Shown: piece after piece, positions 24,088-32,067 of the stretch
Numbering within the stretch: position 1 is the first letter of the stretch
Layout: every line of letters starts with the position of its first letter
DNA from: Planctomycetia bacterium
Lineage (GTDB): Bacteria; Planctomycetota; Planctomycetia; Gemmatales; HRBIN36
Direction: 5' to 3'
NCBI GenBank assembly: GCA_016795155.1
Contig: JAEUIE010000032.1
Span: forward strand, 124,001-188,000
Length of the DNA stretch: 64,000 bases
Made by a program: the position numbers and the translations under genes
Notes under the pieces: model-generated
Told to the model about the DNA's origin: nothing
Databases searched by the model: none
What the model saw: only the letters and a program-made list of their open reading frames with translations

Positions 24088-25392
24088 GTGTATATGAAGC
24101 CTTTAGGCGTTGCCCTGTTAGGGTGTGGTGTCGTTGGCAGCGGCGTTGTCAGACTGCTGATCGAACAGGCAACGAGACTTGCCCAGCGTGCCGGCAGACC
24201 ACTGCAACTTCGCCACGTTGTTGTCCGTGATGCTGAAAAAGAACGATTATTCGCAGTTCCTCCACAGTTGGTTTCCACTCGGGACGAAGTGGTTTATCAG
24301 GACCCTGATGTGGAAGTGGTCGTTGAACTGATGGGAGGTCTCGAACCGGCACGAACACGCATCCTCAATTGTTTCAAACACCGCAAGCATGTGATTACCG
24401 CAAACAAAGCCGTTCTGGCAACGCATGGCGATGAACTCTTTCGGGCAGCACATGATGCAGGCTGCACTCTCGGCTTTGAAGCAAGCGTCGGTGGCGGTAT
24501 TCCCATTGTTCATGCATTGTCGCAGGGGCTAGCTGCCAACGACATAATTGCAATTAAAGCCATTCTCAACGGCACCACCAATTTCATTCTGACATCCATG
24601 TCGGAGAAGAACATTTCCTATTCCGATGCACTACTCGAAGCACAACGGCTTGGCTATGCCGAAGCTGATCCGACACTCGATGTCAGCGGGATGGATTCAG
24701 CACAGAAACTAGCTGTGCTTTCCCGTATTTGTTTCGGTGTCAGCATTCAGGGAGATGCCATCGAGCGACGAGGCATACAAGGCATAGAACTGGTCGATAT
24801 CCAATACGCCCGCATCATGGGATATGCCATCAAACTGGTGGCGGAAGCCTGGATGAGCGAGCATCGCGTGGCATTGCACGTTGAGCCGACTCTCGTACAT
24901 CGGTTTGATCCGCTGGCCCAGATGCCTGGTCCTTACAATGCCATTGAAGTAGTGGGCGATGTGGTGAAGGACACTTTGCTCTGTGGTCCGGGTGCGGGGC
25001 AAATGCCAACCGCCAGCGCCGTGGTTTCTGATTTGATTGACCTGGCTTTGGGACATGCTGCCATCAATTTCAATAGCATGCGATTGTGGTCGCCTGATAA
25101 GGGCATTGGATTACGTTCGCCTTCCGAAATTGAAAGCCGATTTTATTTGAGAGTGAATGCTGAAGAACGGCCTGGCAGTCTGGCTCAGGTGGCTGGTATT
25201 CTTGGCAAAGAGAAAATCAGTGTTGCTTCCATTGTCCAGCACGAGCAGCTTGAAACCCAGCGAGGCTTGGCTGTTCCCATTGTAATCAGCACGCACGCAA
25301 CTAATCTGGGAGCTATTAGAAGGGCTGTATTTGCCATTGATGAGCTTACCAGTTGCTTGACCCCAAGTATTTATATGCCCATAGCTGAATAA
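24088..25392 (+). CDS. hom: homoserine dehydrogenase
   Basis: Reduces aspartate semialdehyde to homoserine with NAD(P)H, the branch point to Thr, Met and Ile. The Rossmann motif GCGVVGSGV is at residues 12-20 and the TANKA signature at 104-108 (K107). The catalytic region FEASVGGGIPI and NGTTNFIL is followed by ADPTLDVSGMDSAQKLAVL, where D203 and K207 match the catalytic Asp and Lys. A C-terminal ACT domain (about 355-430) begins at YLRVNAEERPGSLAQVAGIL and is expected to give allosteric control by threonine. Length 434 is normal. Downstream thrB/thrC are absent from the window. Confidence 0.96.
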   Translation: MYMKPLGVALLGCGVVGSGVVRLLIEQATRLAQRAGRPLQLRHVVVRDAEKERLFAVPPQLVSTRDEVVYQDPDVEVVVELMGGLEPARTRILNCFKHRKHVITANKAVLATHGDELFRAAHDAGCTLGFEASVGGGIPIVHALSQGLAANDIIAIKAILNGTTNFILTSMSEKNISYSDALLEAQRLGYAEADPTLDVSGMDSAQKLAVLSRICFGVSIQGDAIERRGIQGIELVDIQYARIMGYAIKLVAEAWMSEHRVALHVEPTLVHRFDPLAQMPGPYNAIEVVGDVVKDTLLCGPGAGQMPTASAVVSDLIDLALGHAAINFNSMRLWSPDKGIGLRSPSEIESRFYLRVNAEERPGSLAQVAGILGKEKISVASIVQHEQLETQRGLAVPIVISTHATNLGAIRRAVFAIDELTSCLTPSIYMPIAE

Positions 25393-25504: not shown

Positions 25505-27163
25505 GTGTCGCAAAGCGAGCATGTGCTTGATCCACATTTTGTTTCCAAGGATGAAGAATCCCAGCCAACAGAGACTGGGTTGCAATACCTTTCCAGGCTC
25601 AGCTTCTCTCCATTGATGGAAATCTGGAAGGCAAGGTCTGCTGATGGTCAGTTAAGGCAGGTTAAAATTCTCAAGGGACTTTCCAGAAAACGAACCTTAA
25701 CCGACAAGGAACTGGAAAAGATTGCCTATTTGAAATATCTGAAACATCCCCGGCTGGCACCTATCGACGACATTCATTTTGATGCAGGCCGGGTACAACT
25801 GGTTGGACCTTTGCCTGAATTAACCCTTTTTGATCGATGGAAACAATTACGAGCCCAGGGCAAGCAGGGCATTGAACGCAAGGAACTGTTGCAGTACCTG
25901 GCAATTGTTACTGAAGCTCTCGATTTCCTAAGTCGGCATGCCAATCTGCTGCACCTGTGCCTCAGCCCGCATTGCCTTTATTACTTCAGTGGTCGACTGC
26001 GTGTGGCTGACTACTGTCTGGCTCAACTCGCCTGGATTCCCGCAGGCCAGCAACTCGATCAGGTCACTTTGAAATACGCGGCACCTGAATTGTCTGAGGG
26101 TTTGTATCACGACCATTCCGATCAATACAGTCTGGCGCTGATCTACATTGAAATGCTGACAGGCCAGTTGCCGTTCCACGGCAATACGTTGCATCAGTGG
26201 CGTGAACAGCGTCGGGCCATGCAATTTGATTTCAAACTGCTGCCGGGCCATGAGCATGAAGTGCTGTATCGCGCGATGGAGTTTGAACCAGGCAAGCGGT
26301 TTGCCAATGCCACCAGCTTTCTGGAAAACCTGATCCAGTCGCAGGCATCAGCCAGTGGCTTCAGAAGTAAATTGCTCGATCCCTCCGTCGCAGAGTCATC
26401 ACTTCTGTTGACAGGTGAAACCGTACCGGTGATTCCTCGTGAGGAAGTGGAAGCCATTCTCCGCCGACTGATTCAAGTCGTTTCCATGAAGACGGTCTCC
26501 AATCAGGACCAGGGCATTCGCTTCATGATCAGTGATGAAGGCGAAGTCATTCATCGTTGTGCAGCGTGGCTGCCGGGGGGCCTGGCGATTGATAAACTTA
26601 AAGGCTTTGCTCACGAGTGGGATGCGAAACTCGTGCAGGTTGACAAGGTCACTTCTGAATACACTTTCCAGATTCAGATGCAGCAGAATCTCTGGCAGAA
26701 GTTGCTGGGCCGCAAAGCTGAATTCATCGAAATACGAATCAAGCTAACCCCTCCTACGGAAGTTAACGTCAAGCAAACCGAAGTTGATATCCGTATTCGC
26801 TACACGGATTCCAAACCCGAAAACGAGCGTGACCGACTCGAAATTATTGTTCCTGCCTTGCTGTGCAGTTTGCGTACCTATCTGCTGGCGAAAAATGAAA
26901 CCAGAACTGCTGAACGATTTCGTTATGAATCCAAAGTTTATCTTTACCCCATCTACGTGAACTGTGTTGGAGAGCCTCTGGTCTGCCAGTCACGTGATAT
27001 CAGCAGCACCGGTCTGCGAGTGGTTGGCCCTGCGGAATTCACATCCAGCGATTGCATTGTACAATTGCATACGCAGGAATTTGGTTCGGTGATTCTGCCA
27101 GCCCGCGTGCAACGTTGTGAGCCACTTTCCACAGGCATGTATGATATCGGTCTGAAAATATAA
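25505..27163 (+). CDS. pseudokinase with C-terminal PilZ domain
   Basis: A 552-residue protein. Residues about 25-295 have a Ser/Thr kinase fold with a recognisable beta-3 lysine (K54 in RQVKILKG), a conserved APE-like motif (AAPEL 192-196) and the DxYSLALIYIEMLTGQLPF helix. The catalytic HRD-x4-N loop reads HLCLSPHC: C152 replaces Asp, S154 replaces Lys and C157 replaces Asn. DFG reads D169-Y-C, and the Gly-rich loop is missing. It is therefore most likely a pseudokinase. Residues about 305-460 form an unassigned alpha/beta region. Residues about 470-552 form a PilZ domain with R-x3-R (RTAER) and DISSTG, able in principle to bind cyclic di-GMP. GTG start with AGGAAG six bases upstream. Confidence 0.8.
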   Translation: MSQSEHVLDPHFVSKDEESQPTETGLQYLSRLSFSPLMEIWKARSADGQLRQVKILKGLSRKRTLTDKELEKIAYLKYLKHPRLAPIDDIHFDAGRVQLVGPLPELTLFDRWKQLRAQGKQGIERKELLQYLAIVTEALDFLSRHANLLHLCLSPHCLYYFSGRLRVADYCLAQLAWIPAGQQLDQVTLKYAAPELSEGLYHDHSDQYSLALIYIEMLTGQLPFHGNTLHQWREQRRAMQFDFKLLPGHEHEVLYRAMEFEPGKRFANATSFLENLIQSQASASGFRSKLLDPSVAESSLLLTGETVPVIPREEVEAILRRLIQVVSMKTVSNQDQGIRFMISDEGEVIHRCAAWLPGGLAIDKLKGFAHEWDAKLVQVDKVTSEYTFQIQMQQNLWQKLLGRKAEFIEIRIKLTPPTEVNVKQTEVDIRIRYTDSKPENERDRLEIIVPALLCSLRTYLLAKNETRTAERFRYESKVYLYPIYVNCVGEPLVCQSRDISSTGLRVVGPAEFTSSDCIVQLHTQEFGSVILPARVQRCEPLSTGMYDIGLKI

Positions 27164-27260: not shown

Positions 27261-30182
27261 ATGATTGGTCAGATCACAGCCTGCATAACCTTAATGACGT
27301 TGATCTGGTTGGCATCAATCCAACCTGGTGTGCTTATTCCTGCAGTTACTAAGCAGGACAGCAAATCAGTTGAGTACTTCGAAACACACATCAGGCCTAT
27401 GCTGGTACAGCGTTGTCAGAGTTGCCATGGCCCGGATAAGCAAAAGGGTGGTTTGCGGTTGGATCAGCCTGAGTGGATCAGCCAGGGTGGTGAATCGGGC
27501 AAGATCATCGTTCAAGGCAAAGCTTCCGACAGCTTGTTGTTTCAGGCGGTCAGCTATCAGCATGATACTTTGAAAATGCCGCCACGTGGCAAGCTGGCCG
27601 ATGAACAGATACAGCATGTGAAACAGTGGATTGATTCCGGCGCCGTTATGCCTGCAGCATCTGCTTCGACGTCGTCGGCACCAACAACTAGCTTCAACCT
27701 CGATGAACGATTGAAACACTGGTGTTACCAGCCTCTGAACAAAGTAAATGTGCCAATCGCAATCGATCCTGCGACTGTAATAACAAGCATCGATCCATTC
27801 TTTCAGCAAGCCTGGAAAACACAACAACTGCAGCCATCACCTGCTGTTTCCAAATCAGCCTGGCTTCGGCGTGTGACTTTTGACCTGATTGGCCTGCCTC
27901 CCACGCTCGATGAATTGGATGCATTTGAGAAGGATACATCCGATAAGGCATATGCATCGGTGGTTAATCGTTTACTTGCACGAAAAGAGTACGGCGAACG
28001 ATGGGCCAGGCATTGGCTTGACCTGATGCGATATGCAGACACCCTGGGACACGAGTTTGATTATGATTTGCCTAACGCCTGGCGATATCGTAATTACGTC
28101 ATTCGTGCACTCAATGATGATGTCTCGTACCGTCAACTGGTGCTGGAACACCTGGCAGGTGACCTGTTGCCTGAGCCTCGAATCAATCAGAAAGAGCAGT
28201 GGAATGAATCGATCCAAGGGACCGGTTTTCTCTGGCTGGGTGAAGCCAAGCACGGCCCGGTTGATATCAGACAGGAGCAAGCCGATCGTATTGACAACCA
28301 GATCGATGTTATCGGCAAAGCGTTTCTGGGGCAAACCATTGCCTGTGCCCGCTGTCACGATCACAAATTTGATGCCATTGCCACTCGCGATTATTATGCA
28401 CTGTACGGTGTACTGCAAAGCTCACGTTTTCAGGAAGCATTGATTGATACTCCTGAACGCCGGGGGAACTTGATTGCGGACTTGAAACGCGTCAATCGTG
28501 AACTCTCTGCATTCCTGGAGCAGTCGCCAGAGAAGAAAATTACTGAGGAGCAGCCATCCGCACAGACAAAATCAGTTGTTTTCGATATCAGCACGTGCAG
28601 ACCGCAAGGTGAAGCCTGGAATTGGAATGCAGAGAAAACCAGAACGGCATATTTCGATTCGAAAGCTAAATCATGGATGGTTCGTTCAGTGCCGGCCGGG
28701 TGTTGGGACAGTGGCCAGTTCAGCCAGAAGTTGGAAGGTTCTCTCCAAACTGTCAGTTTTACTATTCAGAACCGCTATCTGCATATACTGGCTGCTGGCA
28801 TGAATGGTCGAGTCAGAGTCATCGTTGATGGCTTTGTGGTCATTCGCGATCCCATCTATGGAAGCTTGCGACGGGTCGTTTCCTCGCCAGTTTCACACTG
28901 GCAGACATTTGACCTGAACATGTGGCAAGGCCGGCAGGCTTATGTTGAATTCCTGGACGATGGGCCTGAAGAAATCAGCATGACACCAGATCAGGGTAGC
29001 CAGGGAATGTCCTGGCTGCAGGTCAGTGGAATGGTCGCCAGCAATGAAGCCAAGCCGCCGGAATTGCCGAAGGAAAAGTCCGTTCCGCCTGTTGCAATCA
29101 TCCATGCAGAAGCACTGAAGTTGCTGCAGGAACGCAAAGCCTGCGAAGACAGAATGCAAGCACCACGATACAGCATTGCGACAGCAGATGGAAATGGATT
29201 AGATGAACACATTTTTATTCGAGGCAATCACCGCAGCCCGGGGGAACGGGTGCCACGAGGCCTCTCCAGTGTTTACTGTGGCCAACAGGAGTTGAAAACC
29301 AACCAGGGGTCTGGACGATTGGCATTGGCCGAAAGGCTGGTTGATCCCAACCAGAATCCACTTATTGTTCGAGTCATCGTCAACCGCGTCTGGAAGCACC
29401 ATTTTGGCGAAGGGTTGGTCAAATCGGTTGATGATTTCGGTCGCATGGGGGCTGAACCAACAAGCATGGAACTGCTCGATTACCTGGCAGACTGGTTTGT
29501 GAAAGAGGGTTGGTCGCTAAAGAAGCTGCATCGCGAACTGGTGCTGAGTCATCTCTATCGTCAGTCTTCATCCCAGACTGACCAGGAAATCAGCAAACGT
29601 GATCCACAAAACGCATGGCTTTCTCGCATGCCTCTGAGAAGACTGGAAGCAGAGAGCCTGCGTGATGCCATGCTGGCCATCTCCGGGAGATGGAACCGCA
29701 AAAGTTATTTGGAAGGCAGCAAGATGCCTTATCTCACCAGTCTGATGCAGGGACGCGGCAAACCTTCTGCACAAGGTGAACTGGATGGCGATGGCTATCG
29801 CAGTATTTACCTCAGCATCAGGCGGAATTTCTTGTCCCCTTTTCTGACATCTTTTGATTTCCCCACGCCGTTTACCGCCATTGGGAAACGTTCCGTTTCC
29901 AATACGCCTGCTCAAGGATTGGCCCTCATGAACGATCCGCTGGTAAAAGAGTTATCATCGCAGTGGGCTTGCAAGCTATTCGAGCAGACAATGTCAGACC
30001 AGGAACGGATCGATCGAATGTACCGAATGGCCTATACGCGAAGTGCAACGAAGGATGAGTTGCAACTTGCTCAAGAATTTCTTGGCGAACAAATGAAGCA
30101 GCATCAACATCACGAACAAAAAGCATGGGCTGAATTGGCCCATGCTGTGTTCTGCAGCAAAGAGTTCTTTTTCATCCCTTGA
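27261..30182 (+). CDS. planctomycete cytochrome (PSCyt1) / DUF1549 / DUF1553 (PSD1) protein
   Basis: A 973-residue exported protein found mainly in Planctomycetes and Verrucomicrobia. A signal-like hydrophobic stretch (about 5-28) is followed by the cytochrome-like PSCyt1 domain with C52-x2-C55-H56 in RCQSCHGPDKQKGG, then DUF1549 with the typical KSAWLRRVTFDLIGLPPT and WARHWLDLMRYADT signatures, a beta-sandwich-like middle (about 455-640), and DUF1553 (from LAERLVDPNQNPLIVRVIVNR to the end). Family members are often paired with a DUF1501 protein; none is here. Suggested roles in the field involve polysaccharide degradation, but no reaction is established. The last 11 bases overlap the convergent rtcB. 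Confidence 0.9.
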   Translation: MIGQITACITLMTLIWLASIQPGVLIPAVTKQDSKSVEYFETHIRPMLVQRCQSCHGPDKQKGGLRLDQPEWISQGGESGKIIVQGKASDSLLFQAVSYQHDTLKMPPRGKLADEQIQHVKQWIDSGAVMPAASASTSSAPTTSFNLDERLKHWCYQPLNKVNVPIAIDPATVITSIDPFFQQAWKTQQLQPSPAVSKSAWLRRVTFDLIGLPPTLDELDAFEKDTSDKAYASVVNRLLARKEYGERWARHWLDLMRYADTLGHEFDYDLPNAWRYRNYVIRALNDDVSYRQLVLEHLAGDLLPEPRINQKEQWNESIQGTGFLWLGEAKHGPVDIRQEQADRIDNQIDVIGKAFLGQTIACARCHDHKFDAIATRDYYALYGVLQSSRFQEALIDTPERRGNLIADLKRVNRELSAFLEQSPEKKITEEQPSAQTKSVVFDISTCRPQGEAWNWNAEKTRTAYFDSKAKSWMVRSVPAGCWDSGQFSQKLEGSLQTVSFTIQNRYLHILAAGMNGRVRVIVDGFVVIRDPIYGSLRRVVSSPVSHWQTFDLNMWQGRQAYVEFLDDGPEEISMTPDQGSQGMSWLQVSGMVASNEAKPPELPKEKSVPPVAIIHAEALKLLQERKACEDRMQAPRYSIATADGNGLDEHIFIRGNHRSPGERVPRGLSSVYCGQQELKTNQGSGRLALAERLVDPNQNPLIVRVIVNRVWKHHFGEGLVKSVDDFGRMGAEPTSMELLDYLADWFVKEGWSLKKLHRELVLSHLYRQSSSQTDQEISKRDPQNAWLSRMPLRRLEAESLRDAMLAISGRWNRKSYLEGSKMPYLTSLMQGRGKPSAQGELDGDGYRSIYLSIRRNFLSPFLTSFDFPTPFTAIGKRSVSNTPAQGLALMNDPLVKELSSQWACKLFEQTMSDQERIDRMYRMAYTRSATKDELQLAQEFLGEQMKQHQHHEQKAWAELAHAVFCSKEFFFIP

Positions 30183-31644
30183 TGACGCCGATTGGCCTCA
30201 ACCTGGCGACCTTGGTTGAGATACCTGACTGATGCACGACTTCGACAACATGATCGACATTCTTGTACGCATCAGGCTGTTCTTCTGCCAGGCCTTTCCA
30301 ACTGCGTGCACGGGCTATGACACCACGTAACTCAAGTTCCTTGTCGATGCGTCTACCTTGAGCATGCTTGATGGCAGCAGTACGGCTCATGCATCGCCCC
30401 GCGCCATGGCATGTGCTGCCGAACGATTTTTCCATGCTGCCTGGCTTACCCGCCAGCACCCAACTGGCCCGTCCCATGTCTCCCGGAATTATCACTGGTT
30501 GGCCAATGCCACGATACTGACTGGGCACTTCGGGATGTCCCGGAGGAAACGCCCGGGTAGCGCCCTTGCGGTGTACCCAGACTTTCTTCTGTCGGTTATT
30601 GACGGTATGCTCCTCCAGCTTGGCGATGTTATGTGCAACATCGTACAGCAAGGTCATGCGAAGCTCTTCCCAGGTTTTGCCAAGTACCGAGGCAAATGCT
30701 TCACGAGCCTGCCACATCAGGAGCTGGCGATTGCACCAGGCGAAATTGGCTGCAGCTCGCATGGCACCCAGATAATGCTGCCCTTCCGGGCTGGACACTG
30801 GTGCACAGGCGAGTTGTCGATCAGGGAGCGTAATCCCATATTTTTCAGGGACACCACGCAATGAAGTCAATGCATCATCGCATACCTGGTAGCCGAGGCC
30901 GCGTGAACCGCTGTGAATCATGATGACCACCTGGCTGGGAAACAGTCCCATGGTCTGGCAAGCTGCTTCATCATGAATCTGATCAACTACCTGCACTTCG
31001 AGAAAATGGTTTCCCGAACCAAGAGTACCGCACTGCTGGGCACCACGGTCGAGTGCCCTGTCGCTGACCAGATCGGGGTCAGCCCCATCAAGCCTGCCAT
31101 GTGCTTCGGTGAAATCAATATCACTCTCGGTAGCCAGCCCTCGCTTGAGCAGATAACGAGGCCCTTCCGCCATCAGTTGTCGCAATTCCGATCGATTGAA
31201 ATGATATTTCCCGGATTGTCCCACGCCAGCCGGTACCGTTCGAAACAGCGTCTCTACGATGTTGCGCAAATGTGGCCGGACGGTGTCATAATCGAGATGA
31301 GTACGAATCAGCCTCACGCCGCAATTGATATCATACCCAACCCCGCCTGGTGAAATGACTCCACTTTCATCTGGATCAGTAGCACACACACCGCCAATGC
31401 AGAAACCATATCCCCAGTGTATATCAGGCATAGCAATCGATGCCATTTGTATACCCGGCAACGTTGCAACATTGGCTACCTGTTCCGGTGCAACATCTTT
31501 TCGAATGCTATCTATCAACACATCATCGGCAAAAATAATACCATCCACTTTCATATCCGGACGATACCCTTTGGGTATTTTCCATCGTGTTTCATCAAGC
31601 CGCTCCATCGGACCTTCATATCGTTCTTTAGGCATCGTACTCAT
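30172..31644 (-). CDS. rtcB: RNA-splicing ligase
   Basis: Joins RNA 2',3'-cyclic phosphate (or 3'-phosphate) to 5'-OH ends, using GTP and Mn2+. The family signatures GGVGYDINCGVRLIRT, GSGNHFLEVQVV, IMIHSGSRGLGYQV and the guanylation-site motif CHGAGRCMSR (His near residue 413) are all present. Length 490 is at the upper end of the family range. It lies nine bases after archease, which stimulates RtcB guanylation, so the two form an RNA-repair operon. The final 11 bases overlap the convergent PSD1 gene end. Targets could be cleaved tRNA or mRNA; the PIN toxin elsewhere in the window is not evidently linked. Confidence 0.95.
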   Translation of the reverse strand: MSTMPKERYEGPMERLDETRWKIPKGYRPDMKVDGIIFADDVLIDSIRKDVAPEQVANVATLPGIQMASIAMPDIHWGYGFCIGGVCATDPDESGVISPGGVGYDINCGVRLIRTHLDYDTVRPHLRNIVETLFRTVPAGVGQSGKYHFNRSELRQLMAEGPRYLLKRGLATESDIDFTEAHGRLDGADPDLVSDRALDRGAQQCGTLGSGNHFLEVQVVDQIHDEAACQTMGLFPSQVVIMIHSGSRGLGYQVCDDALTSLRGVPEKYGITLPDRQLACAPVSSPEGQHYLGAMRAAANFAWCNRQLLMWQAREAFASVLGKTWEELRMTLLYDVAHNIAKLEEHTVNNRQKKVWVHRKGATRAFPPGHPEVPSQYRGIGQPVIIPGDMGRASWVLAGKPGSMEKSFGSTCHGAGRCMSRTAAIKHAQGRRIDKELELRGVIARARSWKGLAEEQPDAYKNVDHVVEVVHQSGISTKVARLRPIGVIKG

Positions 31645-31653
31645 CCTGAGGTG

Positions 31654-32067
31654 TTAAATATCAACGATGACTTCTGCAAGCCAGTCGCCATCAGATTGGT
31701 GTTCCAGTTTCAACTGATGATAGGTGATTGCTTTCACCTCATGCGAAGGAGGATGCCTCTGGCTGTCACAAGGTTCGCCATAAGCAACTGCTTCCAGTCC
31801 ATCAACCGATAGGATTATTTCAAACCGTGAAAAGAGCCAGTGTTGCGTTTCGAAAAGATAGAGCAGTTGATTAAGCCAGTCGAAAAGGAGTAGATCACGA
31901 TCTTTCTGTTTGAGCTGAATTGGAACAGATTGTATCGGTTTTACGTCAATGATTTTTTCTGTGATCAATTCAAATAAAGCCAATCCCGCTTCGACAAAAA
32001 TATCCTGCAGAGTTGGACAAATAACCCTGATGCCAATATCAGCAGTATGTTCAAAGTATTCACGCAT
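31654..32067 (-). CDS. archease, RtcB activator
   Basis: A small acidic protein that speeds RtcB guanylation and turnover. The 137-residue length is typical. Diagnostic sequence EHTADIGIRV is at residues 6-15 with D10 in the expected metal-binding position. The LLFDWLNQLLYLFE segment (around 82-95) and C-terminal EVKAITYHQLKLE and AEVIVDI segments match archease. It is first in the operon with rtcB (gap nine bases). A promoter-like pair lies about 45 bases upstream on the minus strand in very A+T-rich DNA. Confidence 0.93.
   Translation of the reverse strand: MREYFEHTADIGIRVICPTLQDIFVEAGLALFELITEKIIDVKPIQSVPIQLKQKDRDLLLFDWLNQLLYLFETQHWLFSRFEIILSVDGLEAVAYGEPCDSQRHPPSHEVKAITYHQLKLEHQSDGDWLAEVIVDI

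Follow-up and report, generated by a model that had tools for sequence, protein, structure and literature searches.

A pseudokinase-PilZ fusion protein of planctomycetes as a candidate cyclic di-GMP-gated kinase adaptor

Results

One chain combines kinase-like, unnamed middle and PilZ domains

The window, by which we mean the whole stretch of 64,000 nucleotides analysed here, comes from a genome assembly of 5.28 Mb in 68 contigs. On its plus strand an open reading frame with a GTG start (25505-27163) encodes a protein of 552 aa. Immediately upstream on the same strand lies the homoserine dehydrogenase gene hom (24088-25392), identified by Pfam and used here as a synteny marker only. A first-pass annotation had read the protein as a kinase-like domain followed by a middle domain and a PilZ domain, and this order was borne out by Pfam, by sequence motifs and by an AlphaFold2 (AF2) model. 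Pfam matched Pkinase at residues 46-278 (E 2.2e-13, above the cut-off) and PilZ (PF07238) at residues 467-551 (26903-27157; E 5.4e-6, 27.1 bits versus a cut-off of 22.5), while NCBIfam returned weak kinase matches only. The Pfam match, a family kinase HMM (E 2e-50), the AF2 model with its Foldseek matches and the phylogenetic tree together place the kinase-like domain at residues 25-282 (25577-26350). Between residues ~285 and 465, a region that the annotation had left without assignment, Pfam gave no match; an alpha/beta fold and profile matches delimit a middle domain that has no Pfam name at residues ~340-462 (26522-26890).

The AF2 model, computed from an alignment of 15 sequences, reached a pLDDT of 79.6 and a pTM of 0.62 over the whole chain and a pLDDT of ~90 in the kinase part. 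In it, a kinase fold is followed by a middle domain of alpha/beta type, and the C-terminal domain has six strands at 477-551. Foldseek retrieved protein kinases at E 1e-13 to 1e-16, so that the structure prediction called for by the annotation recovered both a kinase fold and a six-stranded domain at the C-terminus.

Catalytic motifs are lost in the kinase-like domain

The annotation had described the kinase motifs as degenerate and the kinase as dead, and alignment with the active kinases of the same family retained one part of each statement and amended another. The catalytic loop reads HLCLSPHC (residues 150-157; 25952-25975), that is HLC at 150-152 with S154 and C157, where all active domains of the clade have HLD[IV]KPxN. 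In place of D[FY]G the protein has DYC (residues 169-171; 26009-26017), and the Gly-rich loop is gone, the sequence being RLSFSPLMEIW where active relatives have LGRGGFGEVW. Because the active kinases carry HL in their catalytic loop and many of them carry DYG, the Arg to Leu and Phe to Tyr changes that the annotation had counted as degenerate do not represent losses and are the norm of the clade. Compared with these relatives, the telling losses are D152 to C, K154 to S, N157 to C and G171 to C, in addition to the Gly-rich loop. The beta-3 Lys K54 (25664-25666), the alpha-C Glu E69, the metal-binding DFG Asp D169 and an intact APE motif at 193-195 are kept; K54 and the APE region had been noted as such. 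Given that K54, E69 and D169 remain, the word dead applies to the catalytic motifs and does not extend to nucleotide binding, and the domain may have an unusual activity. A Hanks-type pseudokinase is recognized by a protein-kinase fold that has lost the beta-3 Lys, the HRD Asp or the DFG Asp; the 552-aa protein has the fold and is a predicted member of this class through the replacement of the HRD Asp by Cys152, and active kinase motifs are absent from its chain.

Active, tandem and pseudokinase-only forms of the family

To find relatives we searched 102 genomes of the order with a profile of the middle and PilZ domains; the named matches of the order are Gemmatales/Planctomycetota MAGs, and we refer to it as Gemmatales on that basis. 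A scan of genome contigs gave no match with the single protein and succeeded with a closer alignment. The profile matched in 61 of the 102 genomes, in some of them through PilZ alone, and beyond the order nearly all matches spanned PilZ only. Domain scans distinguished three forms. Form A has one active kinase, a linker, the middle domain and PilZ, and is mostly ~600-690 aa long; form T, which has many members, has an active kinase (K1), a pseudokinase (K2), the middle domain and PilZ, mostly in 860-960 aa; and form S, to which the window protein belongs, has the pseudokinase, the middle domain and PilZ in 544-594 aa. The search for the domain order that the annotation had proposed thus recovered the same order in six other genomes, together with forms A and T. 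Form S was found as full-length open frames in the window genome (G000) and in these six others of its family (G001-G006).

The window genome also encodes a T paralogue of 957 aa (L049; contig C15, 2587-5460, minus strand), so that an active domain and a pseudokinase domain share one chain in L049, whereas the window protein has a single kinase-like domain. The L049 gene adjoins a recG-like helicase gene. S and T occur together in G000, G003 and G004, and no tandem paralogue was detected in the remaining four S-form genomes (G001, G002, G005 and G006), indicating that a fixed partnership of the short form with a tandem protein is not general.

These distributions bear on the main rival to a role in kinase regulation, namely that the pseudokinase is only a scaffold that binds something other than a kinase, such as an enzyme of polysaccharide synthesis or secretion. 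The protein would then be an ordinary cyclic di-GMP effector that works without phosphorylation. PilZ proteins commonly work by target binding, S forms exist in genomes with no detected tandem paralogue, and no kinase gene was found in the immediate neighbourhood of the S-form gene in the window, all of which suit a scaffold. However, the pseudokinase of the T form always lies directly behind an active kinase, and a single active kinase joined to the same middle and PilZ domains exists as well. The tandem and active-only forms tie the family to kinase signalling, and we consider the scaffold rather unlikely.

Some members departed from the three forms. Two proteins with an active kinase, middle domain and PilZ (L110 in G047 and L111 in G038; 584-587 aa) have a middle domain near the tandem type and look like the T form minus K2. 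In G046, a tandem protein (L056, 2149-4760, minus strand) is encoded as two overlapping open reading frames, K1-K2 and then middle-PilZ, which may reflect a frameshift, an assembly error or a true split. The second kinase-like domains of L100 and L126 (G027 and G066) are extremely degenerate, with HALLSP and HGLLNS; since the K1 of both proteins clusters with form A, their second domains possibly represent an independent origin of a pseudokinase.

The pseudokinase is conserved and under purifying selection

For residue counts we used 44 active domains, drawn from K1 and form A, and 31 pseudokinase domains, drawn from K2 and form S; the two very divergent second domains of L100 and L126 were left out. 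All 44 active domains have the catalytic Asp and Lys, and neither residue occurs in any of the 31 pseudokinase domains. The pseudokinases have also gained residues: L153 is found in all 31, R96 in 28 of 31 and W177, which is not prevalent among active domains, in 30 of 31, and P179 occurs in 26 of the pseudokinase domains that have a residue at that position. W177 is part of a pseudokinase-specific signature in the activation segment, LAWIPAGQ (residues 175-182; 26027-26050). The loss of the same Asp and Lys in every pseudokinase relative examined argues that the degenerate motifs are not due to chance.

The same alignment was informative on whether the domain could have kept nucleotide binding or non-standard catalysis and so sense nucleotides or act as an atypical enzyme. 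Pseudokinase folds with other chemistry are known, SelO being an AMPylating and SidJ a glutamylating example. K54, E69 and D169 of the window protein would fit such a role, as would the DFG that several relatives keep and the loop Asn that some of them keep. On the other hand, the window protein has lost the Gly-rich loop, the HRD Asp, the loop Lys and the loop Asn all at once, several relatives have replaced the beta-3 Lys (VQ, VT, VR, AM, AL), and only 7 pseudokinase domains still have E69, indicating that these residues are not a constraint of the family. We therefore regard a sensor or enzyme of this kind as improbable.

A tree built from 87 kinase domains placed the K2 and S domains together (33 rows) on one side of a branch with an SH-aLRT support of 97. 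Constraining the seven S rows as one clade gave a likelihood 8.4 above that of the free search, with a p-AU of 0.67. The window domain sits on a long branch (0.86), and long-branch attraction may account in part for the dead domains falling together, so that the tree lends support but is not proof.

Selection was estimated from close pairs, for which some dS values were near saturation. dN/dS ranged from 0.065 to 0.214 for the pseudokinase, from 0.041 to 0.276 for the middle domain and from 0.119 to 0.274 for PilZ; the pseudokinase values are close to those of the active K1 of the same proteins (0.09 and 0.136), and pairs of short forms gave 0.04-0.21 over all three domains. The position of the S-form gene is kept as well. 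As in the window, the L128 orthologue directly follows hom; in L130, hom and then a phosphoglycerate-mutase gene precede the S-form gene, and in L131 the mutase gene lies upstream, so that the S-form gene holds its place beside hom or the mutase gene in four genomes. These results address the proposal that the gene is a former kinase-PilZ gene in decay, as its degenerate motifs and the long branch of its kinase domain might suggest. Seven family genomes have the frame open over its full length, and the low dN/dS of the short forms, the conserved neighbours and a recurrent pattern of losses accompanied by gained signature residues likewise speak against decay; the selection test largely refutes decay, which we rejected as highly improbable. 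The sequence comparisons indicate instead that the pseudokinase-PilZ protein is maintained under purifying selection. That selection keeps a dead kinase across the order, in many cases directly after an active one, suggests a regulator and not a gene in decay. The link between a dead kinase fold and cyclic di-GMP sensing that the annotation had proposed is supported in part: conservation, selection and the tandem form strengthened a regulatory role, and the annotation's wording on HL and DY, on the dead kinase and on novelty was amended.

The PilZ signature is intact and the ligand is probably made

PilZ is a class of cyclic di-GMP-binding domains. In addition to the profile match and the fold, the protein carries both motifs of the class, RxxxR and D/NxSxxG: RxxxR (R467 and R471; 26903-26917), located at the junction of the middle domain and PilZ, and DxSxxG in the form of DISSTG (residues 498-503 with D498, S500 and G503; 26996-27013). 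The intact signature reported in the annotation was thus confirmed. Of 59 family members, 52 have both motifs in full, and a few lack some motif residues. Thus in the 552-aa protein catalysis is predicted to be lost while the ligand signature is kept.

Two GGDEF proteins of the window genome have intact motifs, L208 with GGEEF and L209 with GGDEF, and cyclic di-GMP is therefore probably made by this organism. The genome further encodes three HD_5 proteins and four PilZ proteins, two of the latter being members of the pseudokinase and tandem kinase-PilZ family; no EAL protein was found in it. PilZ domains with intact motifs that do not bind the ligand exist, as reported for PlpA (PMC8316039), so that the PilZ of the window protein could likewise have given up cyclic di-GMP for protein interaction, as predicted for Pkn1 of Myxococcus xanthus. 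With both motifs complete here and in most of the family, and with cyclases encoded, loss of binding seems hardly probable.

The middle domain is shared with cyclic di-GMP-making enzymes

Searched with the whole model, Foldseek placed full-length AMPK and KA1-autoinhibited MARK1 at the top, with 450-500 alignment columns and above kinase-only matches. The middle domain resembles the KA1 domain of AMPK and MARK in its position C-terminal to a kinase and in its strand-helix-strand-strand-strand-strand-helix order; unlike KA1, it is not matched by KA1 or AdenylateSensor HMMs. Modelled in isolation, it is an alpha/beta domain with a pLDDT of 83.5, and its Foldseek matches were weak (E 2e-4 to 7e-3, TM ~0.4) and fell on BamC N-terminal, START and PYR/Bet v 1 helix-grip folds, with KA1 absent from the top 50. 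The whole model thus favours AMPK and MARK1, but the isolated domain does not. The KA1 (PF02149) and AdenylateSensor (PF16579) HMMs gave no match above chance in 14 genomes, a middle-domain profile found nothing among PDB sequences, and the isolated domain matched no Pfam family. Neither the HMMs nor the isolated-domain fold search supports an identity with KA1; on these models the likeness appears to be a resemblance only.

Across the class, a profile of the middle domain, whose conserved core is approximately LPxxxAxxKLxGF...L..SLRxYLxA, matched the C-termini of HD-PAS-GGDEF proteins of 707-874 aa and HRD-type kinases of 430-480 aa that have no PilZ. The HD-PAS-GGDEF proteins (L217-L230 and L237) belong to other orders of the class and end in ~110-130 aa of the middle domain (e.g. 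residues 570-702 of L217), and at least two of those bearing it have an intact GGEEF. The kinases that end in it are of the Ser/Thr type (L088-L090 and L232-L236). A profile made from the GGDEF-protein copies only matched the window protein at residues 351-469 (E 7e-12), the best match among 932 proteins. The presence of the domain in both GGDEF proteins and (pseudo)kinases indicates, at the level of sequence, that cyclic di-GMP-producing enzymes and effectors of the kinase or pseudokinase type carry one and the same module.

Discussion

We propose that the 552-aa protein is a catalytically inactive kinase adaptor that is gated by cyclic di-GMP and allosterically regulates a kinase, a function we infer and hold with about as much confidence as doubt. 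Cyclic di-GMP would bind PilZ, where RxxxR lies exactly at the hinge with the middle domain, and ligand binding would re-orient the middle domain and the pseudokinase, which would then bind and switch a catalytically active Ser/Thr kinase. The kinase switched by the tandem paralogues would be their own N-terminal domain, in cis; for the short form the partner would act in trans and might be the tandem paralogue L049 or another of the many Ser/Thr kinases of the genome. The adaptor is favoured by the consistent loss of catalytic residues with gain of pseudokinase-specific ones, the grouping of the dead domains, the middle domain held in common with GGDEF proteins, the tandem form, selection, the PilZ motifs, the two intact GGDEF proteins and three HD_5 proteins, and synteny. 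It is disfavoured by the lack of an adjacent partner kinase gene, the four S-form genomes with no detected tandem paralogue, the lack of EAL, the retention of K54, E69 and D169, the few losses of PilZ motifs and the possible long-branch attraction in the tree.

The first-pass annotation knew of no described system of this form. The closest known protein is Pkn1 (MXAN_1467) of M. xanthus, a Ser/Thr kinase that is important in development; its C-terminal PilZ is predicted to lack cyclic di-GMP binding (PMC8316039, PMC8844925). In both proteins a protein-kinase domain is followed by a C-terminal PilZ in one chain. However, Pkn1, compared here by its description, is an active kinase, whereas the window protein lacks the catalytic residues, has intact PilZ motifs and has a distinct middle domain in between. 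Its HLC/S/C catalytic loop makes the window protein an architectural relative of Pkn1-type Ser/Thr kinase-PilZ fusions that is itself predicted not to be a kinase. The claim of novelty consequently holds in part: an active kinase-PilZ fusion has been described (PMC8316039), and the open-access papers searched, in which Pkn1 was the only relevant result on PilZ with a pseudokinase or with planctomycete kinases, yielded neither a pseudokinase nor a tandem version; an earlier description elsewhere is possible. The reviewed bacterial pseudokinase families ActPs1-3, DLHK, GLW, CP1 and DYD share with the window protein a bacterial Hanks-type fold with losses in catalytic motifs but have other partner domains, and the text of the review contains no PilZ, cyclic di-GMP or planctomycetes (PMC12599244). 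A study of planctomycete kinomes counted as functional only domains with intact K, D and D sites and mentions neither PilZ nor pseudokinases in its text, so that proteins of this kind would not be described there (PMC11032199).

The arrangement of the tandem paralogues, with a pseudokinase beside an active kinase in one chain, recalls the JAK family, in which a pseudokinase domain controls the adjoining kinase (JH2-JH1). The planctomycete proteins differ from JAK in that the order is reversed, with the active domain first, in that the kinases are of a bacterial Ser/Thr type, and in that PilZ stands in for receptor-binding domains; moreover, the S form has no active domain. A wider and doubtful extension of the adaptor proposal is that the shared module docks makers and readers of cyclic di-GMP at one place or on one partner within a planctomycete cyclic di-GMP-gated kinase-pseudokinase system, of which the window protein would be the freestanding regulatory half of a bacterial JAK-type pseudokinase control.

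To our knowledge, bacterial pseudokinases are largely uncharacterised, and we know of few proteins that provide a direct physical link from cyclic di-GMP to Hanks-type kinase signalling. The family can be dissected through its three natural forms (active-only, tandem active-pseudo and pseudo-only) and has a readable ligand site, which makes the role of a bacterial pseudokinase directly testable. Its middle module, a domain without a name, connects cyclic di-GMP with kinase signalling.

Elsewhere in the window, the genes for RtcB RNA ligase and archease, a known functional pair, adjoin each other on the minus strand (30172-32067).
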